From NCBI RefSeq assembly GCF_024171765.1, contig NZ_JAMTCI010000001.1:496001-560000 (forward strand): a stretch of 64,000 bases of DNA. Direction: 5' to 3'. Both the position numbers and the translations under genes were made by a program. Below are positions 16,601 to 51,995 of the stretch, in pieces. Each line of letters opens with the position of its first letter. The stretch's first letter is position 1. The notes below the pieces were generated by a model, which worked only from the letters and a program-made list of their open reading frames with translations, did not search any database and was not told the DNA's origin. Source of the DNA: Williamsia deligens. Lineage in GTDB: Bacteria > Actinomycetota > Actinomycetes > Mycobacteriales > Mycobacteriaceae.

Positions 16601-16663
16601 CGTCGACTGGGCGGTTGCAGACGTCGAGTGGGCGGTTGGAGACGTCGACTGGGCGGTTCAGGG
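16601..16663 (+). repeat. Three-copy 21-bp tandem repeat (locus A)
   Basis: Three units of 21 bp begin at 16601, 16622 and 16643. They share the core CGTCGASTGGGCGGTT (S is G or C) and vary in the last five bases. The array fills the gap between the LGFP gene and the convergent AccD3-like gene; the third unit covers the stop codon of the latter. The same array, in the same orientation on the plus strand, occurs at 51933-51995. A short gap-free period and no larger spacer argue against CRISPR. Confidence 0.85.
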
Positions 16664-18133
16664 TGGCAGGCGGTCGCCGCGGGTGGCGACGAGGTCGGCC
16701 ACCGGCACCGACGACACCGCCGCGACGGCCCCGGTGATCGCGGCTCCGATCGCGCGGGCGAACCCCGCGGGATCCCGGGCGGGGTCCCCCTCGTCGACCA
16801 CATGGTCGACGATCCCGCGCGCGGCGAGCGCGTGGGCGCGGATGCCCTGACGCTCGGCGAGCACGTCGGCGTGGTCGGTGTCGCGGAACACGATGAGGCT
16901 CGCACCTTCCGGCGGCAGCGGTGCGAGCCACGCACCCGACGCGGCGATCACCCGGTCGGCCGGGAGCAGAGCCAGGGCGGCGCCCCCGGCGCCCTCACCG
17001 AGGAGCATTGACACCGTCGGCACGGGCAGCGAGATGAGATCGGCAAGGCAGCGGGCGATCTCGCCGGCGAGGCCGCCCTCCTCCGCCTCGACGGACAGAT
17101 CGGCGCCGGGGGTGTCGACGACCGTCACCAGCGGTAGTCGGAGATCGGCGGCGATCTGCATCCCCCGCCGTGCCACACGCAACGCGGCGGGGCCGAGGCG
17201 CGAGCCCGGGCGCTGCAGGCGCCGGTCCTGGCCGACGATCACGACGCCGGTGTCGTCGAGACGGACCAGTGCCACCAGCAGCCCGTGATCGCTCTCGCCT
17301 TCGCCCGTGCCGCTGAGGTCGACGACGTCGGAGGCGATGCGCGACAGCACCTCTCGGACACCCGGACGGTCACCGCGACGCGAGGCGGTGACCACGTCCC
17401 ACGCGCTCCCGGACTGCAGCGGTACGGACGCGGGTGCAGCGAGGGCGTCGACGGCGGCGGGGCGGGCTCCGACGATCCGCAGCACCGCGTCGACGACGGT
17501 CGCGAGCCCGTCGACGTCGAGCACGAGGTCGGCGAGTCCGTGCGCCCGGAGGTTCTCGGCACGTTGCACCCCGTCGGGGAATGCCTCGCCGTACAGGCCC
17601 TCGTACACACGCGGACCGAGGAATCCCACGAGCGCGTTCGGCTCGGCCAGCGTGACGTGCCCCAGTGACGCCCACGAGGCGAAGACACCGCCGGTGGTCG
17701 GGTGACGGAGGTGGACCAGGTACGGCAGGTGGGCGGCCTTGTGGGCGACGACCGCGGCCGTGACCGGCACCATCTGCAGGAACGCCGGTGTGCCCTCCTG
17801 CATCCGGGTGCCGCCCGACGCCGGCAGCGCGACGACGGGCAGGCGTTCGGCGGTGGCACGACGAATGGCCGCGGCCATCCGCGCGCCGGCGTCACGGCCG
17901 ATCGAACCGGCCAGGAAACCGAACTCGCTGACGACCACGGCCACTCGATGTCCGCGGATGCGCACGCAGGCGGTGAGCACCGACTCGTCGACACCCGTCG
18001 TCTCGCGTGCCCGCCGGAGCTCGTCGGCGTACGACTGCTCCGGCGGCAGGTCCACGATGGGGGTGTCCCAGCTCTCGACGCTCCCCTCGTCGGCAAGAGC
18101 GTCGATCACCTCACGGGCGGTGCGTCGGTTCAC
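16658..18133 (-). CDS. accD3: Acetyl/acyl-CoA carboxylase carboxyltransferase (AccD3-like)
   Basis: A 491-residue biotin-dependent carboxyltransferase with both halves in one chain: an N-terminal beta-like crotonase domain (LPASGGTRMQEGTPAFLQM near residue 103, RHPTTGGVFASWASLG near residue 143) and a C-terminal alpha-like domain (TVVDTPGADLSVEAEEGGLAG, LLGEGAGGAALAL). It transfers carboxyl groups from carboxybiotin to acetyl- or related acyl-CoA. Length and position match M. tuberculosis AccD3 (Rv0904c), which lies next to prrA there. No biotin carboxylase gene is adjacent. The start ATG follows the NCS1 permease stop by 21 bases in opposite reading order on the same strand. Confidence 0.87.
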   Translation of the reverse strand: MNRRTAREVIDALADEGSVESWDTPIVDLPPEQSYADELRRARETTGVDESVLTACVRIRGHRVAVVVSEFGFLAGSIGRDAGARMAAAIRRATAERLPVVALPASGGTRMQEGTPAFLQMVPVTAAVVAHKAAHLPYLVHLRHPTTGGVFASWASLGHVTLAEPNALVGFLGPRVYEGLYGEAFPDGVQRAENLRAHGLADLVLDVDGLATVVDAVLRIVGARPAAVDALAAPASVPLQSGSAWDVVTASRRGDRPGVREVLSRIASDVVDLSGTGEGESDHGLLVALVRLDDTGVVIVGQDRRLQRPGSRLGPAALRVARRGMQIAADLRLPLVTVVDTPGADLSVEAEEGGLAGEIARCLADLISLPVPTVSMLLGEGAGGAALALLPADRVIAASGAWLAPLPPEGASLIVFRDTDHADVLAERQGIRAHALAARGIVDHVVDEGDPARDPAGFARAIGAAITGAVAAVSSVPVADLVATRGDRLPP

Positions 18134-18154
18134 ACCCCCATCATGGCTGCGCCA

Positions 18155-19837
18155 CTACTTCTGGGCGGGCAGGACGTGCTCCCCCGTCTTGTCGCACGAG
18201 AGCGCCAGCGACGAGATGTACTGCTTCTCGCCCTTGGGTCCCGGGACCGCCGAGGCGATCATATCGGGCCGCTCGAACTCGACGCCGGTGACGCAGCACA
18301 TCAGCTTGACGTCGGTCGGGTTGCCGTCGGCGTCGAGCATGGGGATGTCGATGCCGTCGTCGGTGCGCCGCAGGTAGAACCGGCCCTGCGTGGCCAGCGC
18401 GATGATCGGCGGGAGCACCAGCGCGAGAACGAGAGCGACGATCGGCGAGTACGGCTGGATGGCGTCGCCGAAGGCGTGGAAGTACACCAGGATCGACGCG
18501 CCCGCGGCCACGATCACCGAGACGAACCCGACGGGGTTGACGTTGTGGAGCATGCCCCGACGGAACTCCGGCTGCTTGGGTGAGATCCCCAGCAGGTACT
18601 TGTTGATCGCGATGTCGGACGCGACGGCGACGATCCACGCGATGCCGCAGTTGGCGTAGAAGTTCAGCAGGTTGTTGAGGAAGCTGAACATGTCGGCCTC
18701 CATCAGCACGATGGCGATGGCGACGTTGAACACCAGGAACACGATGCGACCCGGGTAGGTCTTGGTGACGCGGGTGAAGCTGTTCGTCCACGCCAGCGAG
18801 CCGGAGTACGCGTTGGTGACGTTGATCTTGATCTGGCTGATCACGACCAGGATGACGGCCAGGGTCAGCGCGAGCCAGTGCGGCATGAAGTCCTCGTAGA
18901 TCGCGAGGAACTGCTCGACCGGCTGGTTGGCGACGCCGGCCTGCGCGGAGAAGTTGAGGATCAGGTAGACCGCGAGGAACAGGCCGACGACCTGCTTGAT
19001 CGCACCGAAGAAGACCCAGCCGGGGCCGGCGGTGATGACGGCGGTCCACCAGCGACGGCTGTTCTCGGCGGTCTTGGGCGGCATGAACCGGAGGTAGTCG
19101 ATCTGCTCGGCGATCTGGGCGATCAGCGACAGACAGACACCGGCCGCGAGCATCGTCCCGGCGAACGAGACGCCCTGTCCGCCCTTGGCATCCGTGCCAC
19201 CGCTGTAGGCGAGGAAGTCGCCGATGGCGTCGGGGTGGGTGATGAGCAGGTACAGGAACGGCAGCACCATCATCACGAGCCACAGCGGCGTCGTCCACAC
19301 CTGCAGCTTCGCCAGCGTGTTCATGCCGTAGATGACCAGCGGGATGACCAGCACCGAGGACACCAGATAGCCCAACCACAACGGGATGTGCAGTCCGAGT
19401 TTCAGGCCCTGGGCCATGATCGAGCCCTCGAGGGCGAAGAAGATGAACGTGAACGACGCGAAGATCACGTTGGTGACCACCGAGCCGTAGTAGCCGAAAC
19501 CGCTACCGCGGGTGATGAGGTCGAGGTCGATGTTGTACCGCGCCGCGTAGTACGCCAGCGGATAGCCGGTCACCACGATCACCACGGCGAAGAACAGGAT
19601 GCCCCACAGGGCGTTCCCGGTGCCGTTGGCGATGCCGATGTTGGCGCCGATGGCGAAGTCGGCGAGGTAGGCGATGCCACCGAGGGCGGAGATCGCGACG
19701 ACGCCCGGACCCCATTTGCGGTAACTGCGTGGGGCGAAGCGGAGGGTGTAGTCCTCCAACGTCTCCCGGGTCGCAGCCGCGGCTGGGCCGGTGGCGAGGG
19801 TACTGGTGGTGGGCGGTTCGGCCACGGTGTCCGTCAT
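18155..19837 (-). CDS. NCS1-family purine/cytosine permease with a cysteine-bearing C-terminal tail
   Basis: A 560-residue membrane transporter of the nucleobase:cation symporter-1 family, with about 12 hydrophobic segments (for example GPGVVAISALGGIAYLADFAIG and SGFGYYGSVVTNVIFASF). The start ATG follows AGGAG at a good distance; the frame is open far upstream but that sequence is not protein-like. Beyond the last helix, about 70 residues form a soluble tail with CCVTGVEFERPDM (cysteines near 514-515) and SCDKTGEH (cysteine near 548), which looks like a metal-binding knuckle and is not usual in CodB-type proteins. Substrate is not certain. Confidence 0.88.
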   Translation of the reverse strand: MTDTVAEPPTTSTLATGPAAAATRETLEDYTLRFAPRSYRKWGPGVVAISALGGIAYLADFAIGANIGIANGTGNALWGILFFAVVIVVTGYPLAYYAARYNIDLDLITRGSGFGYYGSVVTNVIFASFTFIFFALEGSIMAQGLKLGLHIPLWLGYLVSSVLVIPLVIYGMNTLAKLQVWTTPLWLVMMVLPFLYLLITHPDAIGDFLAYSGGTDAKGGQGVSFAGTMLAAGVCLSLIAQIAEQIDYLRFMPPKTAENSRRWWTAVITAGPGWVFFGAIKQVVGLFLAVYLILNFSAQAGVANQPVEQFLAIYEDFMPHWLALTLAVILVVISQIKINVTNAYSGSLAWTNSFTRVTKTYPGRIVFLVFNVAIAIVLMEADMFSFLNNLLNFYANCGIAWIVAVASDIAINKYLLGISPKQPEFRRGMLHNVNPVGFVSVIVAAGASILVYFHAFGDAIQPYSPIVALVLALVLPPIIALATQGRFYLRRTDDGIDIPMLDADGNPTDVKLMCCVTGVEFERPDMIASAVPGPKGEKQYISSLALSCDKTGEHVLPAQK

Positions 19838-19948
19838 CGACGCTCCTGTTCGCGCACTGGGTATCTCGCCCGCTGCTGGGCAATAGCGCGAAAGTAGGGA
19901 CGCCGTGTGTCGATCGCTGTGCCGCCATGTTTCCGGCAGGAAAACTCG

Positions 19949-19967
19949 CACGGTTAGCCTTGCGTAA
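19949..19967 (+). promoter_or_regulatory. Iron-box-like site between the NCS1 permease and 2Fe-2S protein genes
   Basis: The 19-mer beginning CACGGTTAGCC agrees with the IdeR/DtxR consensus (TTAGGTWAGSCTWACCTWA) at 14 of 19 positions by my hand count; 13 of the 15 positions at its right end match. It lies 40 bases before the -10 box of the 2Fe-2S gene and in the divergent region of the permease. Confidence 0.35.
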
Positions 19968-19974
19968 CAATCCC

Positions 19975-19992
19975 GGGTGCCGTAAGGCACCC
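19975..19992. promoter_or_regulatory. Perfect inverted repeat upstream of the 2Fe-2S protein gene
   Basis: GGGTGCC-GTAA-GGCACCC forms a 7-bp stem with a four-base loop. It lies 14 bases before the TACCCT -10 box of the divergent 2Fe-2S gene, so an operator is likelier than a terminator. Confidence 0.4.
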
Positions 19993-20019
19993 TCCGACCG
20001 CTCTCGTACCCTGGTGACG

Positions 20020-20400
20020 ATGAGCAACAAGGTGCCGACCGTGACGGTCTGTCGCGGCTGCTGCTGCGGCACCCGCAAGAAGCACCCCGACGTCGACCAC
20101 GACGCTCAGCTCGACGTGCTGCGCGAATCCGCCTCCGACGCGGCGCGGGTCCGGACCAGCGACTGCCTCGACGACTGCAAGCGGTCGAACGTGATGGTCG
20201 TGACGCCGTCTCGCGGGGGTCGCGCCGAGGGTGGACGACCGGTGTGGCTGCAGAAGGTACTGACGGTCTCGGCGATGCACGACATCGGCGAATGGCTGCA
20301 CGCCGGAGGCCCGGGCATCGCCACCCCACCACCTGCGGTCGAACGCCTCGTCTATCGCCCCGGTTCGTCGAAGAAGGGCAAGAAGAAGAAGAAGGGCTGA
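20020..20400 (+). CDS. (2Fe-2S) ferredoxin-like protein, thioredoxin-like fold
   Basis: A 126-residue cytosolic protein with cysteines arranged CRGCCCG near residue 11 and CLDDC near residue 49, the pattern of thioredoxin-like 2Fe-2S ferredoxins and NuoE-like domains. The C-terminus ends in a lysine-rich tail (KKGKKKKKG). It probably carries electrons for an unidentified partner. TACCCT lies seven bases before the ATG, suggesting a leaderless mRNA; a GTG at 20014 is an alternative start. It is divergent from the NCS1 permease, with an iron-box-like site and an inverted repeat between them. Confidence 0.8.
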   Translation: MSNKVPTVTVCRGCCCGTRKKHPDVDHDAQLDVLRESASDAARVRTSDCLDDCKRSNVMVVTPSRGGRAEGGRPVWLQKVLTVSAMHDIGEWLHAGGPGIATPPPAVERLVYRPGSSKKGKKKKKG

Positions 20401-20409
20401 CCTTGCGGA

Positions 20410-21141
20410 TCAGCGCCCGGTGAACCGCGGCGCCCGCTTCTCTGCCCGAGCAGCCCGCCCCTCGGCGAGATCGTCGCTGGCCCAGGCGCGCAACATCGCG
20501 TCGCGCCGTGAGGCCGGCGGCTCGTCCCGGGCGCCGTCGCCGGTGAACACCGCCTTGTAGTGGGCCAGCGTGAGCGGCGCCAGCTCGGCGATCGAGGCGG
20601 CCCACTCCTGCGCCGCGGCGAGATCCCCCAGGCGGTTGGCGAAGCCGGTGGCCAGAGCCTGCTCGGCGGTCAGCGGGTCACACCCGATGAGCATGCCGCG
20701 GGCCGTACCCGCCCCGGCGAGCGAGATCAGACGCCGGATGGTCCACTCGTCCACCGCCACACCGATCTTCGCCGCCGGGATGCCGCAGATCGCCGTCGGG
20801 GACATGACGCGGAGGTCGGCGATCATGGCGAGCTGCAGACCAGCACCGAGCGCGCTGCCGTTCAATGCCGCGACGACGGGAACGGGGATCGACTCGAGAC
20901 GGGTCAGCGTCTCGACGAGCGATCCCAGGAAGTCGGGGTCGTAGACGGGCCCCGAGAGATCGGCACCCGCGCAGAACACGTCGCCCGCGCCGGTCAGGAC
21001 GATCGCGCGCGCACCGGCTGCCACAGCATCGTCGAACGCAGCTGCGAGGTCGGCCACCATCGCATGGTCCAGAGCATTCCGCTTGTCCGGGCGGTGCAGC
21101 TCGATGGTGGTGACGGAACCCTCCGCCGTGCTGACGATCAT
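20410..21141 (-). CDS. Enoyl-CoA hydratase/isomerase family protein
   Basis: A 243-residue crotonase-fold protein. The first oxyanion segment is DVFCAGADLSG (near residue 54) and the second is NGSALGAGLQLAMIADLRV (near residue 94). The catalytic acid positions are not both obvious (AAKIGVAVDEWTIRRL), so activity may differ from a classical hydratase. In M. tuberculosis echA6 (Rv0905) lies beside accD3, and the same proximity here supports orthology, though permease and 2Fe-2S genes now separate them. A TAGTGT box six bases before the ATG suggests leaderless initiation. Confidence 0.87.
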   Translation of the reverse strand: MIVSTAEGSVTTIELHRPDKRNALDHAMVADLAAAFDDAVAAGARAIVLTGAGDVFCAGADLSGPVYDPDFLGSLVETLTRLESIPVPVVAALNGSALGAGLQLAMIADLRVMSPTAICGIPAAKIGVAVDEWTIRRLISLAGAGTARGMLIGCDPLTAEQALATGFANRLGDLAAAQEWAASIAELAPLTLAHYKAVFTGDGARDEPPASRRDAMLRAWASDDLAEGRAARAEKRAPRFTGR

Positions 21142-21488
21142 GGCGCAACACTATCGGCGAGGCCCAGACGTCGAAGCGATACCCGATGGCGTCACCATCA
21201 CGCGACTATCTCGGGTGCCGCGTCGAACGCAACGACATAGCGGTGTGTCGAGGACGTCGCCCGCGGATCGTGGGACCAGATCGCCGACGCTCAGAGTCGT
21301 GGACGGCGAATCGCGTTCGCCACGTCGGCCATCGCCTCGGCGTCGCGGGCCGGGCAGAGCTGGATCATCCGCACTGCAGCATGGCGGCGACCTCGAGGCG
21401 GTTGTCCCCAGCTCATTCGAACATCCTGGCGAATGTCGCACGTCTGTTCTATGATGGAGGTGTTGCTGTAGCTGGGGGGAGGTGCATC
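21142..21488. promoter_or_regulatory. Divergent region between echA-like and HNH genes, with HNH promoter
   Basis: These 347 bases contain no convincing gene. The right end has a near-consensus -10, TATGAT (21450-21455), about 34 bases before the HNH start, with no clear -35. The left end carries the minus-strand TAGTGT box of the enoyl-CoA hydratase gene. A LexA-like half site lies just upstream of the HNH -10. Confidence 0.55.
21417..21432 (+). promoter_or_regulatory. Partial SOS (LexA) box before the HNH gene
   Basis: TCGAAC is followed by four bases and then TGGCGA. Against the mycobacterial SOS box TCGAAC-N4-GTTCGA, the left half is perfect and the right half matches three of six positions. 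It ends 17 bases before the TATGAT -10 box, so it overlaps the expected -35 position, where a repressor could act. Some 13E12 genes of M. tuberculosis are known LexA targets, which raises its plausibility. Confidence 0.4.
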
Positions 21489-22979
21489 GTGGACGACGGT
21501 CTGGTCGCGAGATATGTAGCGTTGCATCGCCTTCTGGGTGAGATCGCCGAGGCGTCGTCGGATGCGTGTTCCGAGCGTGAAGTCGCGGAGTTGGCGATCA
21601 CGCATGAGCGGGCGGTCCGCACGATGGGGTCGATCGGTCTGCGACGCATCCTCGACGTCAGCGATCGTGACGCGCACACGTCGGTGCAGTGCTCGACGCT
21701 CACACACTTCGTCGCTGAACGCTTACGATTGCCGAATCCCAAGCGGCGGTTGAAGCAGGTGCTCGCACTGTCAGAGATGCACTCTGTGACCGGCGAGAAG
21801 TTGCCCGCGAAGTGCCCGGAGACCGCGGCGGCGATGGCCGATGGTGACCTCACCCACGAGCATGTGGATGCGGTGCTCGGCGTGATGGACAAGGTCCCGG
21901 CTGCGACGTCACCGGAGGTGCGGGAGAAGGCCGAGGAACAACTCGCCGACATCGCCCGCCATCATTCACCGAAGGACATCCACCGCGCGGGTGCGCGGCT
22001 GCTCGCCCACATCGACCCCGACGGTGCCGAACCGTCGGATCGTGATCGGGCCCGGCAGCGATCACTGTCCTTGGGCAACCAGGACCCGCAGCTCATGTCC
22101 AAGCTGCGCGGGAATCTGGATCCGGTTACCCGAGCCCTGTTCGAGGTGGTGTTGGCGAAGTGGGCCAAGCCCGGCATGAACAATCCTGACGACGAGGCCT
22201 CACCGCGCGGCGGGGTGGGCGACGACGGCATCGACACCGACGCACTCACCGCGGCCGCAGAACGGGATTCGCGGACCCAGCAACAGCGCAACCATGACGC
22301 GCTGAACGCGCTGCTGCGTGCAGCGGCCGACGGCGGGCTGCTCGGGAAGTCGCATCGTGGACTGCCGCCGCACCTGATCATCTCCATCACCGACACCCAA
22401 CTCCGCGAACGCGCGGGGATCGGGCACACCGCAACCGGGACCGATCTCCCCATGAGCGAGATCATCAAACTTGCCGCGCAGGCTCAGATGCATCTGGCCG
22501 TGTTCGACGACATCACCGGCGAAGCCCTGTTCTACGGACGGTCACGCCGACTCGCGTCGGAGGCGCAACGGTTCGTGTCGTTCGCCCAGTACGGCGGCTG
22601 CTCGATGCCCGGCTGCCCGGCACCGTTCTCCCACACCGAAGCTCACCACGCCGAACAGGACTGGGCGCAGGGCGGATCGACAGACATCAGCGACCTCGCC
22701 CCCGCGTGCGGGCCGCACAACCGGGCCGTCCACGACAGGCCCGGCGGCTGGCAAACGCAGAAGATCCGATCCGGCCCCGACCGCGGGACATTCGGGTGGA
22801 CCGCCAACGGCACCACCGACCCACCCAGAACCAACCACCTGCACCGACCGGATCAGATCCTGGCCGACCACGCACCACCCGACCCGGACGCCTCGCCGGT
22901 CGAGAACCTCCTGGCAGAGGTCGTCGCCCGGCAGCTGCCCCACGTGGACATCCGCTGGTGGCCGGACCGCGCTGCGTAG
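21489..22979 (+). CDS. DUF222/HNH endonuclease, 13E12 repeat family
   Basis: A 496-residue protein of the family repeated many times in actinobacterial genomes (REP13E12 in M. tuberculosis). The first 350 residues are the helical DUF222 domain. The C-terminus holds an HNH nuclease: CSMPGCP zinc pair, EAHHAEQDWAQGG catalytic region, then DLAPACGPHNRAVH closing the zinc knuckle. Role is unproven, but the family is widely treated as mobile or DNA-damage linked. GTG 21489 follows a GGGGGGAGG ribosome binding site. It is complete, not degenerate, and 10 bases before the next gene, so the flavoprotein may be cotranscribed. Confidence 0.9.
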   Translation: MDDGLVARYVALHRLLGEIAEASSDACSEREVAELAITHERAVRTMGSIGLRRILDVSDRDAHTSVQCSTLTHFVAERLRLPNPKRRLKQVLALSEMHSVTGEKLPAKCPETAAAMADGDLTHEHVDAVLGVMDKVPAATSPEVREKAEEQLADIARHHSPKDIHRAGARLLAHIDPDGAEPSDRDRARQRSLSLGNQDPQLMSKLRGNLDPVTRALFEVVLAKWAKPGMNNPDDEASPRGGVGDDGIDTDALTAAAERDSRTQQQRNHDALNALLRAAADGGLLGKSHRGLPPHLIISITDTQLRERAGIGHTATGTDLPMSEIIKLAAQAQMHLAVFDDITGEALFYGRSRRLASEAQRFVSFAQYGGCSMPGCPAPFSHTEAHHAEQDWAQGGSTDISDLAPACGPHNRAVHDRPGGWQTQKIRSGPDRGTFGWTANGTTDPPRTNHLHRPDQILADHAPPDPDASPVENLLAEVVARQLPHVDIRWWPDRAA

Positions 22980-22989
22980 AGTCGCGCCC

Positions 22990-24090
22990 GTGACCCCGGA
23001 CGAGATCGACTGCGTCGTCATCGGCGGCGGGCAGGCCGGACTGTCGGCGGGCCACTTCCTCCAGAGGTTCGGACTCGACGGCCGATTCGTCATCCTCGAC
23101 CACGCTCCGGCCCCTGGCGGCGCCTGGCAGTTCCGTTGGCCCACACTCACACTCGCCGGCGCCAACCATGTCCACGACCTCCCCGGCTGGGGCCTCACCG
23201 AGGCACTCGGAACCGAGTGCGACGCGTGGCCCGCGGCGAGCGCCGTCGCCGACTACTTCCGGCGATACGAGGAACGCTTCGACCTGCCCGTCCGTCGACC
23301 TGTGCACGTGCGATCGGTCCGCCGAGCCGACGCCGAGACGTTCGAGGTCGCCGCGGTGAGCGCCGACGGCCCCTGCGTCCTCCGGACACGCACGGTGGTG
23401 AACGCGACAGGCACCTGGGACCGGCCGTTCATCCCCCACGTCCCCGGCATCGACACCTTCGCCGGACGCCAACTCCACACCCACGACTACCAGGACCCCC
23501 ACGACTTCGACGGTGAGCGCGTGCTCATCGTCGGCGCGGGGATCTCCGCGGTGCAGCTGCTCATCGAGATCGCGCGCACCGCGGAGGACGTCACCACCTT
23601 CTGGTGCAGTCGACGGGAGCCGGAGTTCTCCGACGCACCGTTCACGCCCGAGGGCGGCCGCGAGGCCGTCTCGCGGGTGGAACGCCGCGTCCGCGCGGGC
23701 CTTCCGCCCACCTCGGTGGTGTCGGTGACCGGACTGTTCCGCACGCCGGCGATCGCTGCGGCACAGACCGACGGGATCCTCGAGTGGATGCCGATGATGG
23801 ACTCCGTGACCGAGTCTGGGGTTTCCTGGACCGATCCCGACCGGCCCGACCTCGCGGTCGACACCATCTTCTGGAACACCGGGTTCCGCAGCGCGCTCGA
23901 CCACCTCGCACCCCTGCGCCTCCGCGCCCCCGGCGGCGGCATCACCATGACCGGGCGCCTCGCCACGGTGGTCGCCGACGAGCCCCGCATCCAGTTGCTG
24001 GGCTACGGGCCGTCGGCCTCCACCATCGGTGCGAACCGCGCGGGTCGGGAGGCGGCGCGCGTCGTCGTCGACCTGTTGTCGAACTCCTGA
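22990..24090 (+). CDS. FAD-dependent NAD(P)-binding oxidoreductase (monooxygenase-like)
   Basis: A 366-residue flavoprotein of the CzcO/flavin monooxygenase-like group. The FAD Rossmann motif is VIGGGQAGLSAG (residues 10-21), followed by GGAWQFRWPTL, and the NAD(P) motif is VLIVGAGISAVQL (near residue 177). A closing LLGYGPSASTIGANRAGR segment completes the FAD site. Function could be hydroxylation or Baeyer-Villiger-type oxidation of small organics; the substrate is unknown. GTG 22990 lies 10 bases after the HNH stop; its ribosome binding site is weak. Confidence 0.85.
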   Translation: MTPDEIDCVVIGGGQAGLSAGHFLQRFGLDGRFVILDHAPAPGGAWQFRWPTLTLAGANHVHDLPGWGLTEALGTECDAWPAASAVADYFRRYEERFDLPVRRPVHVRSVRRADAETFEVAAVSADGPCVLRTRTVVNATGTWDRPFIPHVPGIDTFAGRQLHTHDYQDPHDFDGERVLIVGAGISAVQLLIEIARTAEDVTTFWCSRREPEFSDAPFTPEGGREAVSRVERRVRAGLPPTSVVSVTGLFRTPAIAAAQTDGILEWMPMMDSVTESGVSWTDPDRPDLAVDTIFWNTGFRSALDHLAPLRLRAPGGGITMTGRLATVVADEPRIQLLGYGPSASTIGANRAGREAARVVVDLLSNS

Positions 24091-24132: not shown

Positions 24133-24288
24133 TTGCCGGTACCGTCGTACACAGTGATCAGGGTCGAAACGACGGCTCACCCGCGGCGACTTGTGGGGCA
24201 GACAGCCACCGCCGGGCACCGGTCACGTCGGGGGCGTACGCGGTCCACTGGGTCGCGCGCGCATGGCACGGAAGCGAGCGGGCGTTCT

Positions 24289-44175: not shown

Positions 44176-45540
44176 ATGACCACACATGTCGCGGGGGACA
44201 GGAAAGGCCTGGCCAAGGCGTTCGCGGCCAGCCTCACGGGGACCGCGCTGGAGTGGTACGACTTCGCCGTCTACTCGGCCGCCGCGGCACTGGTCTTCCC
44301 GGACATCTTCTTCCCCGACAACGACCCGCTGACCGGGACGCTGCTCGCGTTCTCGACCTACGCGGTCGGCTACGTGGCACGTCCCATCGGCGGCTTCGTG
44401 TTCGGTCGGCTCGGCGACGTGATCGGCCGCAAACAGCTGCTCGTCATCACGCTGCTCCTCATCGGCGTCACCACCTTCGCGATCGGGCTCATCCCCTCCT
44501 ACGCGAGCATCGGCGTCGCCGCCCCGATCATCCTGGTGGCGATGCGCTTCGCCCAGGGTGTGGCCGTCGGCGGCGAGTGGGGTGGGGCCGTCCTGCTCTC
44601 GAGCGAGTACGGCGACCCCCGGCGTCGCGGGTTCTGGTCGTCGGCGGCCCAGATCGGCCCGCCGGCCGGCAACCTGCTGGCCAACGGCGCACTCGCCCTG
44701 CTCACCGTCTCGATGACGGACGCACAGTTCGAGTCGTGGGGATGGCGCGTCGCATTCCTGTTCTCGGCGATCCTCGTCGGGTTCGGACTGTGGATCCGGT
44801 TGAAGCTGGAGGACACCCCGGTGTTTCAGGCGCTGCAGGAGAGCGGGGACCGCTCCGCGGCCCCGATCAGCGAGGTGTTCCGCACCCAGCTCCGCCCGCT
44901 CGTCGCGGGGATCCTCTCCCGCATCGCCCCCGACGTCATCTACGCGCTGTTCACCGTCTTCTCGATCACGTACGGCACCGAGCACCTCGACTTCGACCGC
45001 GGCGAGGTCCTCACCGCGATCCTCGTCGGCTCGGCGTGTCAGCTGGGGCTCATCCCCCTGGCCGGCGCCGTCTCCGACCGGGTCAACCGTCGGCTGGTCT
45101 ACGCCGTCGCGGCCGTCGGCGGCGTGGTGTGGTGTGCCGTCTTCTTCCTCGTGATCGGCGGCAACTCGCTACCGCTGCTCATCCTCGGCGTGGTGGTGGG
45201 ACTGGCGTTCCACTCGTTCATGTACGGCCCGCAGGCCGCGTTCGTCACCGAACAGTTCAGCGTGCGACTGCGGTCGACGGGCAGCTCGCTGGCCTACACG
45301 ATCGCGGGTGTGTTCGGCGGCGCGATGGCACCGCTGATCTTCGTGTACCTGCTCGACCGGACCGACAGCTGGTTACCGATCGCCGGGTACATCGCCGTGG
45401 TCGGTGTGCTCACGCTGATCGGGTTGGCGTTCGGCCGCGACCCCGACCCGTCGGAGGACGAGCACTACGTGGCGATCCACGCCGAGACGACCCACACGGG
45501 GGCCGAGACCGTCACGCCCGCAGCAGGACTCCGAGCGTGA
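44176..45540 (+). CDS. MFS transporter, metabolite:H+ symporter (MHS) family
   Basis: A 454-residue transporter with 12 membrane segments. MHS features: GTALEWYDFAVYSAAAALVFPDIFF near residue 22, GRLGDVIGRKQLL, RFAQGVAVGGEWGGAVLLSSEY near residue 125, and the RRRGFWSSAAQIGPPAG segment. Such proteins take up small carboxylates or betaines. AAGGAG precedes the ATG. It is divergent to DUF2848 across a GntR-type operator and is convergent with the gntR gene, their ends overlapping by 29 bases. Confidence 0.92.
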   Translation: MTTHVAGDRKGLAKAFAASLTGTALEWYDFAVYSAAAALVFPDIFFPDNDPLTGTLLAFSTYAVGYVARPIGGFVFGRLGDVIGRKQLLVITLLLIGVTTFAIGLIPSYASIGVAAPIILVAMRFAQGVAVGGEWGGAVLLSSEYGDPRRRGFWSSAAQIGPPAGNLLANGALALLTVSMTDAQFESWGWRVAFLFSAILVGFGLWIRLKLEDTPVFQALQESGDRSAAPISEVFRTQLRPLVAGILSRIAPDVIYALFTVFSITYGTEHLDFDRGEVLTAILVGSACQLGLIPLAGAVSDRVNRRLVYAVAAVGGVVWCAVFFLVIGGNSLPLLILGVVVGLAFHSFMYGPQAAFVTEQFSVRLRSTGSSLAYTIAGVFGGAMAPLIFVYLLDRTDSWLPIAGYIAVVGVLTLIGLAFGRDPDPSEDEHYVAIHAETTHTGAETVTPAAGLRA

Positions 45541-46153
45541 CCTCCAGATGATCGTCGATCGCCGCGTGCGCCGACGCCTCGTCGCCCGCGGCGAGCGCGT
45601 CGACGATCGTCCGGTGTTCGGCGCACACGCGGTGCTGCCGGTCGGAGGCGCTGAACAGGGCGCTCACACCGACGCGGAGCTGCCGGGCACGCAGGCCGGC
45701 GTAGGTGCGGGAGAGCAGTTCGCTGCCGGCCGAGTCGACGAGTGTCTGATGGAAGCGGCCGTCGATCTCGATGAAGCGGGTCGCCGCGTCCGTCTCTCGC
45801 GAGTCGGCGAGCGCCTCCTGCTCGGCGAGCGCGACGGACATCGCGTCGACGGGTGCGCTGTCGTGCGCGAGGGCCGTGGTCGCGGCGTGCCGTTCGAGGA
45901 CGCCGCGCAGGTCCATCAGCTCACCGATCTGACGCCCCGACATCGCCGGGACGTGGGCACCCCGCTTGGGGACCATCTCCACGAGGCCCTCCGACTGCAG
46001 CATGAGCAGCGCCTCGCGGACCGGGGTGCGCGAGACGCCGATCCGGGTGGCCAGGTCCTGCTCGTTGAGGAACGTCCCGGTGGCGGCCGGCGACGTGAGG
46101 ACCTCGTCGCGCACGAACAGGTACGCCTTCTCCCGACCCGACATCGCTTGCAT
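45512..46153 (-). CDS. GntR-family transcriptional regulator, FCD-type
   Basis: A 213-residue regulator: N-terminal winged helix (LNEQDLATRIGVSRTPVREALLMLQSEGLVEMVPKRGAHV) and C-terminal FCD ligand-binding domain with conserved polar residues for a metal-carboxylate effector. Starts are possible at ATG 46153 or 46144. The operator spans its start codon and TATACA lies six bases upstream of ATG 46153, suggesting leaderless autoregulation. It probably represses the DUF2848/MHS and nitrilase genes. Confidence 0.9.
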   Translation of the reverse strand: MQAMSGREKAYLFVRDEVLTSPAATGTFLNEQDLATRIGVSRTPVREALLMLQSEGLVEMVPKRGAHVPAMSGRQIGELMDLRGVLERHAATTALAHDSAPVDAMSVALAEQEALADSRETDAATRFIEIDGRFHQTLVDSAGSELLSRTYAGLRARQLRVGVSALFSASDRQHRVCAEHRTIVDALAAGDEASAHAAIDDHLEVTLGVLLRA

Positions 46154-46168
46154 ACGACATGTATATCC
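46145..46168. promoter_or_regulatory. GntR-type operator in the gntR/nitrilase divergent promoter
   Basis: The site matches the one at 44101-44129 in 15 of 17 core bases, in the order GCATACGACWTGTATAY. It covers the gntR start codon and a -10 hexamer on the minus strand. Confidence 0.65.
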
Positions 46169-46199
46169 GTCTCCCACCGACCACACCAGGAGTGACACC

Positions 46200-46997
46200 G
46201 TGACGACAACCATCCGCGTCGGCCTCGCCCAGGTCTGCAGCAGCGACGACCCCGACGCGAACCTCGCCGTCATCGACGCCCACACGACCCGCGCCGCCGA
46301 GTCCGGGGCCGCGATGGTCGTCTTCCCCGAGGCGATGATGCGGTGCTTCGGCGGACCCCTGGCCGACGTCGACGAACCGCTCGACGGGCCCTGGGCGGAC
46401 GCGGTCCGCGCGATCGCGGCCCGCGTCGGCATCACGATCGTCGCGGGGATGTTCACCCCCGCGGACGCGGGACGGGTGCGCAACACACTGCTCGTCACCG
46501 GCGGCGGTGTGGACGCGCACTACGACAAGATCCACCTGTTCGACGCGTTCGGGTTCCTCGAATCAGACACCGTCGCACCGGGTTCGGACCCGCTGGTCGT
46601 CGACGTCGCCGGCGTCCGGGTCGGGTTCGCGTCGTGCTACGACATTCGCTTCCCGGCCCTGTTCACGCGGCTGGCCGATCTCGGCGCCTCGGTGATCGTG
46701 GTCGCGGCGTCCTGGGGCGCCGGCGAGGGCAAGGTCGACCAGTGGACCCTGCTCGCCCGGGCGCGGGCCCTGGACTCCACCTCTCACCTGGTGGCGTGCG
46801 ATCAGGCCGAACCCCGCGACGTCGTCGACTCCCCCGCACCGCGCGGGGTCGGCCACTCGCTGGTGGTCTCACCCACCGGAGCCGTCACCGATCACCTCGG
46901 GGAGGGATCGAAGATGCTCGTCGTCGACCTCGACACCGCCGACGTCGACGCGGTGCGCACCGCACTACCTGTCCTGCGGAACCGCCGATCCCTGTGA
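46200..46997 (+). CDS. Carbon-nitrogen hydrolase (nitrilase superfamily)
   Basis: A 265-residue amidase of the nitrilase fold. The catalytic triad is glutamate 44 (VVFPEAMM), lysine 110 (YDKIHLFD) and cysteine 146 (FASCYDIRFP). It would hydrolyse a small amide or omega-amidate, with the substrate imported by the MHS transporter of the same island. GTG 46200 follows AGGAGT. It ends in a strong hairpin before the convergent citrate synthase gene. Confidence 0.92.
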   Translation: MTTTIRVGLAQVCSSDDPDANLAVIDAHTTRAAESGAAMVVFPEAMMRCFGGPLADVDEPLDGPWADAVRAIAARVGITIVAGMFTPADAGRVRNTLLVTGGGVDAHYDKIHLFDAFGFLESDTVAPGSDPLVVDVAGVRVGFASCYDIRFPALFTRLADLGASVIVVAASWGAGEGKVDQWTLLARARALDSTSHLVACDQAEPRDVVDSPAPRGVGHSLVVSPTGAVTDHLGEGSKMLVVDLDTADVDAVRTALPVLRNRRSL

Positions 46998-47004
46998 TCG
47001 GCGG
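46982..47004. terminator. Terminator-like hairpin between the nitrilase and gltA genes
   Basis: CCGCCGATC-CCTGT-GATCGGCGG is a perfect 9-bp stem with a five-base loop, including the nitrilase stop. It lies in the gap between convergent genes. Confidence 0.65.
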
Positions 47005-47033
47005 CTCGGCGGGACCGGGTCAGGACGACCGGG

Positions 47034-48350
47034 TCAGCGGTCGCCCATCCCGGTGAAGTCACGCTCGGTGTACCCGGTGTAGATCTGGCGCGGGCGGCCG
47101 ATCTTCGTCGTCGGGTCGGTGTTCATCTCCTGCCAGTGCGCGATCCAGCCGGGCAGGCGGCCGAGCGCGAACAGCACCGTGAACATGCGGGTGGGGAAGC
47201 CCATCGCGCGGTAGATCAGGCCCGTGTAGAAGTCGACGTTGGGGTACAGCTTCCGCTCGATGAAGTAGTCGTCGGAGAGCGCGACCTCCTCGAGCCCCTT
47301 CGCGATGTCGAGCAGATCGTCGGTGACACCGAGGGTCTCGAGGATCTGGTCGGCCGTCTTCTTCACGATCGCGGCGCGGGGGTCGTAGTTCTTGTAGACG
47401 CGGTGCCCGAAGCCCATGAGCTTCACGCCGGGCTCCTTGTTCTTCACGCGCTTCATGAAGTCCGTGGTGTCGCCACCGCCGGCCTTGATGTCGTCGAGCA
47501 TCTCGAGCACGGCCTGGTTGGCGCCACCGTGCAACGGACCCCAGAGGGCGTTGATGCCACCGGAGATCGAGGTGAACAGGTTGGCCTGCGACGAGCCGAC
47601 GAGGCGCACGGTCGACGTCGAGCAGTTCTGCTCGTGGTCGGCGTGGAGGATGAACAGCATGTCGAGCGCCTTGACGATGGCCGGGTCGACCTCGTAGGGC
47701 TCGGCCGGAAAGCCGAAGGTCATCCGCAGGAAGTTCTCCACCAGCGACAGCGAGTTGTCGGGGTAGAGGAACGGCTGGCCGACCGACTTCTTGTAGGCGT
47801 AGGCCGCGATCGTCGGCAGCTTCGCCAGCAGACGGATCGTGGAGAGCTCGACCTGCTCGGGATCCTTGGGATCCAGCGAGTCCTGGTAGTAGGCGCTCAG
47901 CGCGTTGACCGCGCTCGACAGCACCGGCATGGGGTGCGCGTTGCGGGGGAACCCGTCGAAGAACCGCTTGAGGTCCTCGTGCAGCAGCGTGTGGCGCTGG
48001 ATGCGGGTCGTGAACTCCTCCAGCTGCGACGCGGTCGGGAGCTCCCCGTAGATCAGCAGGTAGCTGACCTCGATGAAGGTCGACTTCTCCGCCAACTGGT
48101 CGATCGGGTACCCGCGATACCGCAGGATCCCGGCCTCACCGTCGATGTAGGTGATGGCCGACTTCGTCGACGACGTGTTGACGAAACCACCGTCGAACGT
48201 CGTCATCCCCGTCTCGGAGAGGAACTTGCCCAACGCGACGCCGGGGGCCCCCTCGGTGGCCTCGACTATCGGGAGGTCGAGTGCCCCACCCGGGTACTCG
48301 AACTTCGCGGATCGGGTCTCGGACCCGGCAGACACTGCTTCGGCGGACAC
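47034..48350 (-). CDS. gltA2: Citrate synthase, GltA2-type
   Basis: A 438-residue citrate synthase that forms citrate from acetyl-CoA and oxaloacetate. The catalytic residues lie in HADHEQN, GPLHGGANQAV and VKLMGFGHRVYKNYDPRA, with aspartate from the DFYTG segment. The length and the N-terminal extension match the type II-like enzyme of actinobacteria (M. tuberculosis gltA2, Rv0896). A ribosome binding site, AAAAGGGG, precedes the GTG start. A second, shorter citrate synthase gene lies 10 kb away. Confidence 0.94.
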   Translation of the reverse strand: MSAEAVSAGSETRSAKFEYPGGALDLPIVEATEGAPGVALGKFLSETGMTTFDGGFVNTSSTKSAITYIDGEAGILRYRGYPIDQLAEKSTFIEVSYLLIYGELPTASQLEEFTTRIQRHTLLHEDLKRFFDGFPRNAHPMPVLSSAVNALSAYYQDSLDPKDPEQVELSTIRLLAKLPTIAAYAYKKSVGQPFLYPDNSLSLVENFLRMTFGFPAEPYEVDPAIVKALDMLFILHADHEQNCSTSTVRLVGSSQANLFTSISGGINALWGPLHGGANQAVLEMLDDIKAGGGDTTDFMKRVKNKEPGVKLMGFGHRVYKNYDPRAAIVKKTADQILETLGVTDDLLDIAKGLEEVALSDDYFIERKLYPNVDFYTGLIYRAMGFPTRMFTVLFALGRLPGWIAHWQEMNTDPTTKIGRPRQIYTGYTERDFTGMGDR

Positions 48351-48422
48351 TCGGGCCCCTTTTCGACTGGCTGGAACCGTCTTGTGAACGGTGGTCCAGG
48401 TGTGCGTATCCCTGCCTTCACG

Positions 48423-49373
48423 CTAGTCGCTGGACAGCTCACCCGCCCACGGAGGGTCGGCACCTGCCCGGGACACGGTGACCGCGGCGGCCCGGGCGGC
48501 GAACGACGCCGCACCGCGCCAGTCGTCGTCGGTCATCGACCGCACCGCCTCGACACCGAGGAGATCGTGCTCGTCGAGCCAGGCCAGCAGGGCTCCGACG
48601 ACGGTGTCACCGGCACCGATCGTGTCGACGGTCTCGACCTGCGGCGCGGTCACCTCGACGGTCCCCACGCTCGTGGTCACGGAGATGCCGTCGGGCCCGC
48701 GGGTCGAGACCACCGCCGCCACACCGTGATCCAGCCAGTCCGCCGGGGTGGAGCCGGCCGGACCGTCCGCGAGCCACGCGGCGTCGTCGTCGGAGACCTT
48801 CAGGACGTCGACCGCCGACAGCCATCCGACGAAGCGTCGCCGGTAACCGTCCGGGTCGTCGATGACCGCGCTGCGGATGTTCGGGTCCAGCAGGACGAGC
48901 CGCCCGCGCGCGTGGTTCTCCGTCATCATCGCGGCGTACACCGACGCGCCGGGTTCCAGGACCAGGGACAACGTCCCGAACGCCAACGCGCCCACCGTCT
49001 CCGGGAGCGGACCCGGATCGGTCACCCGGCGATCCGCCGTGCCCTCGACGTAGAAGCTGTACTGCGCGGACCCGTCGGTGCCGATGGTGGCCAGGGCCAA
49101 CGACGTGGGTGCGTCGTCGCGTTGGACGAGTCCGGTGTCGACGCCGGCAGCGGTCAACGAGTCGACGATCGCGTCACCGAAGTGGTCGGTGGACACGCGG
49201 GAACAGAACGCCACCGACGATCCCAGGCGACCGACGGCGACCGCGGCGTTGAACGGCCCACCACCGAGTGCGGGCTGCAAGGGCGCCAACCCGGACGTGT
49301 CGCCGGCCGCGGCAGCGCGCGCGTCGAGCACGAGGTCCACCAGGGACTCCCCGCAGACGACGATGCGTGTCAC
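48423..49373 (-). CDS. PfkB-family carbohydrate kinase
   Basis: A 316-residue sugar kinase: GGGPFNAAVAVGRLG (near residue 38), the sugar-contact segment CSRVSTDHFGD, and the catalytic DTIGAGDTVVGALLAW near residue 247 with the nucleophile-activating aspartate. This matches fructokinases and ribokinases. GTG 49373 overlaps the upstream mutarotase gene (GTGA), so the two are coupled in sugar use. Confidence 0.9.
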   Translation of the reverse strand: MTRIVVCGESLVDLVLDARAAAAGDTSGLAPLQPALGGGPFNAAVAVGRLGSSVAFCSRVSTDHFGDAIVDSLTAAGVDTGLVQRDDAPTSLALATIGTDGSAQYSFYVEGTADRRVTDPGPLPETVGALAFGTLSLVLEPGASVYAAMMTENHARGRLVLLDPNIRSAVIDDPDGYRRRFVGWLSAVDVLKVSDDDAAWLADGPAGSTPADWLDHGVAAVVSTRGPDGISVTTSVGTVEVTAPQVETVDTIGAGDTVVGALLAWLDEHDLLGVEAVRSMTDDDWRGAASFAARAAAVTVSRAGADPPWAGELSSD

Positions 49374-50296
49374 GCCGGCGCCCCGCGGTGTGCCAGACCC
49401 CACTGCCCGGACCATCGCTGGCCCGGCTCGAGGACGATGAGGTCGTCGCCGGAGGCCAGCGCGTTGGGCGGCGCGGTCATCGGCTCGACCGCCACCGCGC
49501 GTCCGCGACCGGGGAACCCCTGCCCGTGGTCGGGGTCGGCGGTGAACACCTGCGCCCACCGGAATCCCGTGTCCGTCCACAGCACCGTCGTGTCACCGTC
49601 GGGATCGGCCAGGGTCGACTCGTGCCGACCGTCGACCGCGGTCATGTCGGTGAAGGGGGTGTCCAGCCAGACACCGGCGAGCCCGCGGCCGGCCCGGAAG
49701 TCACGATCGGTGCCGGCGACGGGCGTCGGATCACCCTGCGGCAGCTGACGTTCGGGGTCCAGCGGGAGCGTCGACGCGGCGGGCAGCGTGAGGACGCAGT
49801 CGTCCACGGGGGCGTCGCCGGCGCGGACGAAGGTGTGGAAGCCGAGCGCGAACGGAGCCCGCTCCCGCCCGGCGTTGGTGACGGTCGCGGTGACGGTGAG
49901 TCCGGTGTCCTCGTCGAGCGCGTACTCGACGACCAGGGTGAGGTCGAACGGCCACCCGGCGTGGCGGCCGATCGGGACGCCGAGGGTCACGGCCCGCTCC
50001 GACGCGTCGTACAGCGCCCACTCGACGGTCCGCACGAAGCCGTGGTTGGCGTTGTTGCGCTCGGTCTCGGTGATCTCGAGCTGGTGGGAGACGCCGTCGA
50101 ACGTGAACCGGCCGTCGGCGGTGCGGTTGGGCCAGGGGGCGAGGACGAGACCCGCGGACAGCGGGGGCTTCTCGTCGAGGGCGACCGACGGCGCCTCGGT
50201 CAGGAGCCGACCGCGATGGCGGACCTCGCGCAGACCTGCGCCCCGCGACACCACGACGGCCGAGTAGTCACCGGCGGAGACAGCGAACTCACCCAC
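49370..50296 (-). CDS. Aldose 1-epimerase family protein
   Basis: A 308-residue mutarotase-like protein with PNRTADGRFTFDG near residue 56, NNANHGFVRTVEW near residue 81 and the histidine in HTF near residue 155. It interconverts sugar anomers. The start could be GTG 50296, matching the family N-terminus, or ATG 50314. It precedes a kinase gene in the same operon. Confidence 0.9.
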   Translation of the reverse strand: MGEFAVSAGDYSAVVVSRGAGLREVRHRGRLLTEAPSVALDEKPPLSAGLVLAPWPNRTADGRFTFDGVSHQLEITETERNNANHGFVRTVEWALYDASERAVTLGVPIGRHAGWPFDLTLVVEYALDEDTGLTVTATVTNAGRERAPFALGFHTFVRAGDAPVDDCVLTLPAASTLPLDPERQLPQGDPTPVAGTDRDFRAGRGLAGVWLDTPFTDMTAVDGRHESTLADPDGDTTVLWTDTGFRWAQVFTADPDHGQGFPGRGRAVAVEPMTAPPNALASGDDLIVLEPGQRWSGQWGLAHRGAPA

Positions 50297-50363
50297 CCGT
50301 CGAGTCTGGCACATCCGTGGTGGACGCCCGCCCGGATACGGGCCGGGTGATTACGGTGGGCCC

Positions 50364-51035
50364 GTGCGCGAGACACCGGCCGGCCACGACGCACTGCTGC
50401 TCGATTTCGGCGACGACGACACCCCCTGGCGTGCGGCGCTGCGCGCCGGACGCCTGCTGCGGGCCGCCGCGCGGGACGGTCGCCTCCCCGACGTCGTCGA
50501 CGTCGTGCCCACCGAGCAGGCCGTGATGGTGCAGTCGCGTCCCGGGCGGGGGATCGACCGGCTCGGCGTGCGAAGGGTGCTTCGGGACAGCCGCACCGAC
50601 ACGGAGGTCGACACCCGTCCCGGGGACGTGGCCGACGAGACGCGGATCGAGGTCCGGTACGACGGGCCGGATCTGCCCGACGTCGCTCGACGGCTCGGTG
50701 TCGACGTCGAGACGCTGGTGCAGACGCACACGTCGATCGTGTGGCGTGTGCAGTTCATGGGGTTCGCGCCGGGCTTCGGGTATCTCGTCCCGCACGAGCC
50801 ACCGTCCACCGACCTCGAGCGGGCGCTGTGCGCGGTGCCGCGGCGTGCGCAGTCGCGGCCGTCGGTTCCCGCCGGGGCCGTCGCCGTCGCCGCCGGCTAC
50901 TCCGCGGTCTATCCCCGGTCGTCGCCGGGTGGGTGGAACCTGCTGGGCCACACCGACGTCGTGCTGTGGGACCTCGAGCGCGACCCGCCCGGCCTGCTCG
51001 AACCCGGCCGCCTCGTCCGCTTCTGCGCCGCATGA
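50364..51035 (+). CDS. pxpB: 5-oxoprolinase subunit B (KipI-like)
   Basis: A 223-residue PxpB/KipI-type protein: LLDFGDDDTPWRAALRAGRLLRAA near the N-terminus and FMGFAPGFGYLVPHEPP near residue 132, the family signature. PxpBC with PxpA opens 5-oxoproline to glutamate with ATP. The start GTG 50364 is six bases after a TACGGT -10 box, suggesting a leaderless mRNA. It overlaps pxpC (ATGA). A pxpA gene (LamB/YcsF family) is not in the window. Confidence 0.9.
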   Translation: MRETPAGHDALLLDFGDDDTPWRAALRAGRLLRAAARDGRLPDVVDVVPTEQAVMVQSRPGRGIDRLGVRRVLRDSRTDTEVDTRPGDVADETRIEVRYDGPDLPDVARRLGVDVETLVQTHTSIVWRVQFMGFAPGFGYLVPHEPPSTDLERALCAVPRRAQSRPSVPAGAVAVAAGYSAVYPRSSPGGWNLLGHTDVVLWDLERDPPGLLEPGRLVRFCAA

Positions 51036-51910
51036 GAGGTCGATGGCTGCGTGTGGTCTCCGCGGGCCCGCAGACGACGGTGCAGGACCTCGGTCGGACG
51101 GGGTGGGCGCACCTCGGCGTCCCGCTCGCCGGCGCCGCCGACCGGTCGTCGGCCGCGACCGCCAACCGACTCGTCGGGAACGACCCGCAGGCGGCGGTGC
51201 TGGAGGTGACCCTCGGCGGGTTCGTCGCCGTGGCGGAGGGTCCGGTGACGATCGCGCTCGCGGGGGCGCGCTGCGACGCGAGCGTCGACGGGACCGCTGT
51301 CGGGCACGCGAGCACGGTCTCCGTCCCGGATGGCGCGACGATCGCGCTCGGCACGGCCCGTTCGGGACTGCGCTGCTACCTCGCGGTGCGCGGCGGTATC
51401 GACGCGCCGGAGGTGTTGGGGTCGCGGTCCACCGACACCCTGTCCGGTCTCGGGCCACCGCCCGTCGCCGACGGTGATCGGGTCGCGGTCGGCGACCTCG
51501 CCGGTCCGTGGCCGTCGGAGACGACGGCTTTCGGTGACGTCGGGGACGGCGCCGGCGACGTCGTCCTGCACGCCGTCGCCGGCCCGCGCGACGACGCCGT
51601 CGTCGACCTCGCCGCACTCGCCGCCGGGGAGTGGGTCGTCGACCCCCGTAGCGACCGGATCGGTGTCCGACTCGGTCGCGACCCGGACACCGACGACCCG
51701 GCCGTCCGGTTGCTGCCCGGACGCGACGAGGTGCCGTCCGAGGGGGTCGCGCTGGGATCGGTGCAGATCCCGCCGAGCGGTGAGCCGGTGCTCTTCCTCG
51801 CCGACCATCCCGTCACCGGTGGCTATCCCGTGGTCGCGGTCCTCACGGCCTCGTCGACCGATCGCGCTGCGCAACTCGTCCCCGGACAGCGCATCCGCCT
51901 CCGACTCTGA
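51032..51910 (+). CDS. pxpC: 5-oxoprolinase subunit C (KipA-like)
   Basis: A 292-residue PxpC/KipA-type protein with GPQTTVQDLGRTGWAHLGVPLAGAAD near residue 12 and YLAVRGGIDAPEVLGSRSTDTL near residue 113, both conserved. It partners PxpB. It ends 22 bases before the 21-bp repeat array that precedes the DUF2236 gene. Overlap with pxpB and the absence of pxpA suggest an operon of two subunits only. Confidence 0.9.
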   Translation: MRGRWLRVVSAGPQTTVQDLGRTGWAHLGVPLAGAADRSSAATANRLVGNDPQAAVLEVTLGGFVAVAEGPVTIALAGARCDASVDGTAVGHASTVSVPDGATIALGTARSGLRCYLAVRGGIDAPEVLGSRSTDTLSGLGPPPVADGDRVAVGDLAGPWPSETTAFGDVGDGAGDVVLHAVAGPRDDAVVDLAALAAGEWVVDPRSDRIGVRLGRDPDTDDPAVRLLPGRDEVPSEGVALGSVQIPPSGEPVLFLADHPVTGGYPVVAVLTASSTDRAAQLVPGQRIRLRL

Positions 51911-51932
51911 CCCGGACGCACCTCACCCACCA

Positions 51933-51995
51933 CGTCGAGTGGGCGGTTGACGGCGTCGAGTGGGCGGTTGGCGACGTCGAGTGGGCGGTTGACGA
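51933..51995 (+). repeat. Three-copy 21-bp tandem repeat (locus B)
   Basis: Units begin at 51933, 51954 and 51975 and share CGTCGAGTGGGCGGTTG, with only the last four bases varying. The array matches that at 16601-16663, orientation included. It lies between pxpC and the DUF2236 promoter, whose -35 begins nine bases beyond the array. Confidence 0.85.

Follow-up and report, generated by a model that had tools for sequence, protein, structure and literature searches.

Introduction

What are the two short tandem arrays that stand between genes in this stretch of the Williamsia deligens chromosome, and does anything bind them? The window, that is, the whole 64-kb stretch of DNA analyzed here, holds two arrays of three 21-bp units each, which the original prediction took for sites of a nucleoid or regulatory protein or for a small interspersed repeat family. 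Known extragenic repeats are, to our knowledge, mostly palindromes of disputed role. We found no description of the present arrays in the literature, although most subscription journals lay outside that search, so that their absence from print is not established.

Results

The window holds two exact 21-bp arrays behind gene 3′-ends

The features of the window that bear on the question are the following (gene prediction by our own script where stated, domains by Pfam).

16003-16593, plus strand: LGFP-repeat protein gene (PF08310; own gene prediction, Pfam), ending 7 nt before array 1
16601-16663, plus strand: array 1, units 16601-16621, 16622-16642 and 16643-16663, core (C)GTCGASTGGGCG with filler of the species type
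16658-18133, minus strand: carboxyltransferase gene (PF01039/PF03255; Pfam), convergent, its stop codon (16658-16660) within unit 3 of array 1
51053-51910, plus strand: PF02626 carboxyltransferase gene (own gene prediction, Pfam), codirectional and upstream of array 2, its stop 22 nt before the array
51933-51995, plus strand: array 2, units 51933-51953, 51954-51974 and 51975-51995
52041-53024, plus strand: DUF2236/MPAB_Lcp_cat gene (PF09995; Pfam), downstream of array 2

The sequence CGTCGASTGGGCGGTT is matched exactly on the plus strand at all six units (16601, 16622, 16643, 51933, 51954 and 51975). With up to 2 mismatches it has 7 matches in the window, 0.45 being expected, and 7 were reached in none of 100 shuffles. 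Tandem Repeats Finder independently assigned a period of 21 to both arrays. Exact matching, shuffling and repeat finding thus confirm that these are two real three-unit arrays with units of exactly 21 bp. No match to Rfam was obtained in the window at the gathering threshold.

The genes on either side of array 1 converge, the LGFP-repeat gene being on the plus strand and the carboxyltransferase gene on the minus strand. The contexts of the two arrays had been called unrelated; this is not supported, because both follow gene 3′-ends, as does most of the family described below. At the end of the carboxyltransferase gene, the orthologous site carries head-to-head arrays in two relatives (G004 and G007) and a 22-bp array of another core in a third (G006); no array was found there in G001, G002, G003 and G005, where inverted repeats were noted by eye only. 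At the DUF2236 site, units are present in G007 only, in both orientations, G001–G005 have none, and G006 lacks a clear orthologue. Array presence varies among relatives at both window sites. Array 2, once placed just before the DUF2236 promoter, is better read as following its upstream gene, because the orthologous DUF2236 sites are mostly without units.

The arrays belong to a genome-wide family, abundant in four of the genera searched

The genome from which the window comes (4.41 Mb) contains 24 exact 15-mers in forward and 24 in reverse orientation, with 0 in the reversed-pattern control. Both window arrays do lie on the plus strand, as had been pointed out, but given this even split the shared strand means little alone. 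Two-unit matches with up to 3 mismatches numbered 60 forward and 63 reverse, against 0 and 1 in the reversed-pattern control. The two window arrays are therefore members of many, the interspersed repeat family is borne out by matches far above chance, and chance frequency of the core, the doubt raised with the prediction, is not what was found.

The strict two-unit pattern occurs in 23 of 401 genomes of the bacterial family: Williamsia accounts for 7 (of 8 genomes), Gordonia for 14 (of 52) and two further genera for one apiece. A generalized pattern, GYCGASNGNGC at three steps fixed at 21 bp (other periods would be missed), matched in 63 of the 401, with at most 1 control match per genome. At least six such matches were present in 33 of the 401 genomes, from four genera only (Williamsia, 6/8; Gordonia, 19/52; g11, 7/9; g17, 1/1); 33 of the 52 Gordonia genomes had fewer than six and 25 had none. 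The search of this genome and related genera that had been called for returned dozens of arrays per genome, mostly at gene ends, in many Williamsia and Gordonia. Many loci are common to several species by descent. G001, of the same genus as the window's genome, matched neither the strict nor the generalized pattern, and 400 kb of it yielded a single weak chain of two cores, with 0 and 3 mismatches, and no array by the general test. No array match was found in viral contigs.

Across the class, 50 of 296 genomes matched the generalized pattern, none more than six times except the window's own, with up to 3 matches in the reversed-pattern control; many of the matches resemble GCCGACGGCGC coding runs by eye and were not accepted as arrays. 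A search for arrays beyond the clade gave at least 99 stretches, 95 of them from Williamsia or Gordonia and 4 from elsewhere among the matches listed. These four (L076, Tannerellaceae; L161, Dysgonamonadaceae; L104, Janibacter; L133, Chloroflexi) were judged by eye to be heptad-coding or chance repeats. L076 and L161, metagenome-assembled genomes of a distant phylum with the same isolate prefix (Nc350), hold 21-bp arrays with the exact core GTCGAGTGGGCG and AT-rich filler; by eye they look like protein heptad repeats, and we take the likeness as coincidence. The counts below took in 77 of the 95 Williamsia and Gordonia stretches, and the other 18 (L151–L169 without L161) entered only the late dyad check. 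The family is real, and of the genera searched it is strong in four related ones.

In one genome of the Gordonia group (G329; L222–L240), 380 kb sampled irrespective of arrays contained two arrays, starting 1 and 2 nt past stop codons; a third was taken from a region selected for a match. Some tandem repeats of this genome turned out to be palindromic and others to have a further 21-bp core. The palindromic repeat, GGTCTCGAGGCTCG...CGCACCTCGACCATCGG, is separate from the arrays: one 13-mer of it recurs in 21 bins of 60 bp over the 380 kb. No match to PF01797 was obtained in this genome despite that repeat.

A conserved core is set in a species-specific unit

Each unit consists of the 12-bp core GTCGASTGGGCG, before which a C almost always stands, and of filler that completes 21 bp. 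Of the longer core first proposed, a common part exists, narrowed to 12–13 bp, (C)GTCGASTGGGCG; outside it, the next three bases (GTT) included, the unit is species-specific. Conservation was measured over 149 units from 40 arrays of the window's genome: it reaches at least 89% at every core position but position 5 (A in 83%) and position 6 (G or C), and ranges over 54–95% in the filler, a contrast that is partly built in, since the units were located by the core. Firmer than this contrast is the observation that the filler is alike inside each genome and differs by species around the common core. The core is asymmetric and the unit non-palindromic, and no fixed unit ends were seen.

The period is nearly constant. 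At loci of five genomes chosen by a single 15-mer site, 148 of 159 steps between successive cores less than 130 bp apart measured 21 bp, 2 measured 20 bp and 9 were larger. Over all typed loci, many of them chosen by the 21-bp pattern itself, the figure was 390 of 434. The 12-bp core varies among species within the same architecture: G120, for example, has GYCGASCGTGCC, and several Gordonia have GCCGACAGCGCT. The window's genome, too, has a few arrays whose cores are of other types, GTCTGTTGGGCG and GTCGACCGTGC (G000:C1:331887-331940, 664626-664678 and 2226741-2226918). In one convergent gap of another genome (G108, L249:9833-10188), a plus-strand array of ∼8 units faces a minus-strand array of a different core type (∼6 units).

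Arrays accumulate at gene ends, often between convergent genes

For this count, genes were called with our own script, and a locus with orthologues in several species was counted once in each. Clusters between convergent genes made up 42 of 81 in Williamsia, 20 of 67 in Gordonia and 21 of 34 in G120; the corresponding numbers were 33, 30 and 10 for codirectional pairs, 4, 5 and 2 for divergent pairs, and 2, 12 and 1 inside predicted open reading frames. Taking the intergenic clusters of Williamsia and G120 together, 63 of 112 were convergent, compared with 54 of 337 neighboring gene pairs in 400 kb of one genome, G001, which served as background (Fisher p = 1.2e-15), or 26 of 202 when gene gaps of at least 20 bp were considered. 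The preference was weaker in Gordonia (20 of 55 intergenic clusters). Between codirectional genes, the array was closer to the stop than to the next start in 23/33 Williamsia, 21/30 Gordonia and 6/10 G120 cases.

Orientation relative to transcription appears only weakly biased, with 37 sense and 19 antisense among single-arm codirectional arrays (p = 0.022). An earlier count of 88 sense among 124 was dropped, because strand is uninformative between convergent genes and codirectional single arms alone count. In the placement count, Gordonia held 4 tail-to-tail and 2 head-to-head dyads, tail-to-tail pairs being as common there.

Other regularities of placement were looked for and set aside. Five loci, with arms ∼1–1.5 kb apart, looked like gene cassettes flanked by arrays, but the enclosed genes differ except in one orthologous pair (L037, L082). 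No regulator recurred beside the arrays of 11 divergent gaps inspected by eye, and among the loci whose flanking genes were read no replication or partition gene was seen by eye next to an array.

One array of the window's genome lies in frame within a nonribosomal peptide synthetase (NRPS) gene (L044:2978-3052; G000:C1:2415077-2415151), in an interdomain linker, where it reads as a 7-residue repeat. By eye, the same linker has a different repeat in G004 and two units of a GTGCC-type core in G001. Because relatives have different repeats in this linker, the position of an array can outlive its core sequence.

Gaps between facing arms cluster at helical intervals

The gap of a head-to-head pair was taken as the distance between its two innermost cores, and gaps above 60 bp (79, 113 and 143) were not scored. 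In G120 (n = 25), the gap was 26 bp in 18 dyads, 25 in 1, 27 in 2, 36–37 in 3 and 46 in 1. In Williamsia (n = 20), it was 24–26 bp in 10, 15 in 2, 4–6 in 5, 11 in 1 and 46 in 2. The nine Gordonia gaps were 7, 17, 17, 18, 27, 38, 39, 47 and 59 bp. When periods of 8–14 bp were scanned, the best fits were 10.25 bp in Williamsia, 10.30 in G120 and 10.35 in Gordonia (R = 0.84, 0.97 and 0.92), and uniform random gaps equaled them in 0, 0 and 1 of 2000 trials, respectively. The Gordonia gaps of 39 and 59 bp belong to one locus; without the latter, random gaps reached the fit in 12 of 5000 trials.

The 21-bp unit itself accounts for some of this periodicity. Steps of 21 bp, by which a unit is gained, lost or decayed, keep the phase unaided, so that shifts of two turns (25 to 4 or 5) add no independent evidence. 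Reduced modulo 21, the gaps fall into residues 3–6 and 15 in Williamsia (with one exception, 11), 4–6 and 15–16 in G120, and 5–7 and 17–18 in Gordonia. These classes lie about half a unit, or one turn, apart; a fit to 10.5 bp as good as this arose from uniform residues in 0, 0 and 2 of 20000 trials. Fewer gaps support the one-turn class than the main class: those outside the main class lay near the opposite residue in 6 of 7 Williamsia cases with wide detection (p = 0.013) and 2 of 3 with strict detection (p = 0.32), and in 3 of 3 in both G120 and Gordonia (p = 0.053 each).

Four dyads from loci previously left out fit the same scheme, with gaps of 25 bp in W. serinedens and of 16, 16 and 17 bp in three genomes of the Gordonia group. 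Among eight sets of orthologous dyads, four hold the gap within 1 bp and four shift by about one or two turns (14/25/4, 15/25, 15/25/24 and 25/5), some of them being matched through one flanking gene only. The length of the dyad centre is held while the centre sequences of Williamsia share little. Tail-to-tail gaps were 10–14 bp in 9 of 10 cases. The proposal that a 21-bp period would set bound proteins on one face of the helix gains support from these quantized head-to-head gaps.

In 7 of 18 G120 dyads (L316–L361), the plus core nearest the 26-bp centre carries T at position 3 (GTTGA or GCTGA). The centre is weakly palindromic when both strands are read together, and it may bind something else.

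Discussion

We read the arrays as phased DNA sites for a putative protein that most likely blocks or insulates transcription at gene ends, with a probability of about 0.48. The geometry itself argues for a protein, because the gaps between facing arms fall into one-turn classes and shift between these classes at orthologous loci; it is from this geometry that we infer protein binding, and we further infer cooperativity and a block to transcription. Each 21-bp unit would contain one asymmetric 12–13 bp site of a sequence-specific DNA-binding protein, and a period of two turns would place all bound copies on the same face of the helix. Where arms face each other, a gap held in helical register would let the proteins of both arms touch and form one nucleoprotein complex. 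Situated just past stop codons, often between convergent genes, such a complex would most likely block or insulate transcription in the fashion of phage stoperators.

In the accessible text of the reports on cluster A mycobacteriophages (L5, Bxb1, TipsytheTRex), stoperators are ∼13-bp asymmetric sites in short intergenic spaces, at which a monomeric repressor blocks elongation, and their motif varies among related genomes (PMC9283540, PMC6550527). The arrays likewise present an asymmetric site of ∼13 bp at gene ends, with a motif that varies between genomes. They differ from stoperators, as far as that text describes them, in that (i) they are carried by the host rather than by a phage; (ii) tandem 21-bp arrays and phased dyads are not among the stoperator features described; (iii) the orientation rule is strong there and appears weak here; and (iv) the repressor family phrog_357 has a strong match in only 1 of 62 genomes (G006, E 1e-76; control, 1/14), with two matches at E ∼0.009 in G015 and G314. 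Two further systems share part of the architecture. Iterons and ParR centromere repeats are ∼20-bp tandem direct repeats with one protein per unit on one helix face; the arrays resemble them as helically phased tandem sites, but they occupy many chromosomal gene ends instead of a single plasmid locus. The Sal-box terminators of rDNA, tandem short sites past the gene at which bound TTF-I stops the polymerase, are alike in lying after a gene and unlike in serving eukaryotic Pol I, a comparison made by description only.

Gene-end placement also fits insertion where it is least harmful. A selfish or tolerated repeat family, spread by a putative enzyme, would find gene ends harmless, and the helical geometry would then belong to the spreading complex and not to a host function. 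We consider this unlikely, though well above negligible. The patchy distribution in Gordonia, the filler alike within each genome, the array read as seven residues in the NRPS linker and the differing presence among relatives at both window sites are what such a family would leave. However, the RAYT transposase family (PF01797) had no match in 62 genomes, while the control search found it in 5 of 14 known genomes; the units are non-palindromic with no fixed ends seen; many loci are shared by descent; and dyad centres keep their length where their sequences in Williamsia have little in common. REP/BIME elements, in the accessible text of one report, are extragenic repeats scattered in many copies; neighboring copies often point in opposite directions, and they lie past the ends of genes, in convergent or codirectional gaps (PMC3733652). 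The arrays share with REP, BIME and REPIN elements the dispersed extragenic copies, mostly downstream of genes, and differ in their non-palindromic units, fixed 21-bp tandem period, arms in register and lack of a PF01797 match. On these tests, the arrays belong neither to the REPIN/RAYT elements nor to the phage stoperators, and no candidate binding protein came to light.

It is rather improbable that the arrays organize the chromosome, as supercoil-related sites (BIME/gyrase or nucleation of a nucleoid protein) at convergent ends where positive supercoils gather, with secondary effects on transcription. Phased sites and convergent placement would suit this role, and the accessible text on H-NS offers a precedent, in which the arrangement of high-affinity sites alters the nucleoprotein structure formed (PMC5418058). 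A core role in the chromosome is made less likely by G001, a genome of the same genus without matches.

Being inverted repeats, facing arms fold into long hairpins, and some single loci of the window's genome (L033 and L048) fold strongly (z −5 to −6), with the partner arm within the folded stretch. An RNA element, either a 3′ UTR hairpin or a bidirectional terminator made of the facing arms, nevertheless has very little probability. Compared with shuffles, the window arrays fold in no unusual way (z −0.11 and 1.64). At position 6, register-paired facing cores carry the same base in 59 of 125 cases and different bases in 66, where independence would give 52% agreement, so that no compensatory base pairing between the arms is apparent at this position; and a hairpin needs no loop-length classes one turn apart. 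The lack of covariation at position 6, together with the ordinary folding of the window arrays, places the function at the DNA level, and action of the arrays as DNA sites has good support.

Chance or neutral tandem duplication with no binding factor can be dismissed with near certainty, for slippage would give a constant 21-bp spacing inside one array but not the recurrence of one core and one period at dozens of loci of a genome, and in several species with different fillers, nor the excess over reversed-pattern controls of 0 and 1 here and no more than 1 in any genome of the bacterial family, nor the dyad gap classes.

Returning to the phased protein sites, we tentatively propose, with somewhat more doubt than about the sites themselves, that the arrays and their mirror pairs form a class of bacterial gene-end insulator not described before, one that would seed a one-face protein assembly. 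The cognate protein would have shifted its specificity between species and genera and moved the genome's sites along with it, with no change in unit length or dyad phase. Our estimates for this proposal and for the main reading were lowered slightly, since some of the phase signal is a consequence of the 21-bp unit. The proposal predicts a DNA-binding factor, and it would offer natural replicas of a whole set of sites rewritten between species, which bear on how a protein evolves in concert with its numerous sites in a genome.
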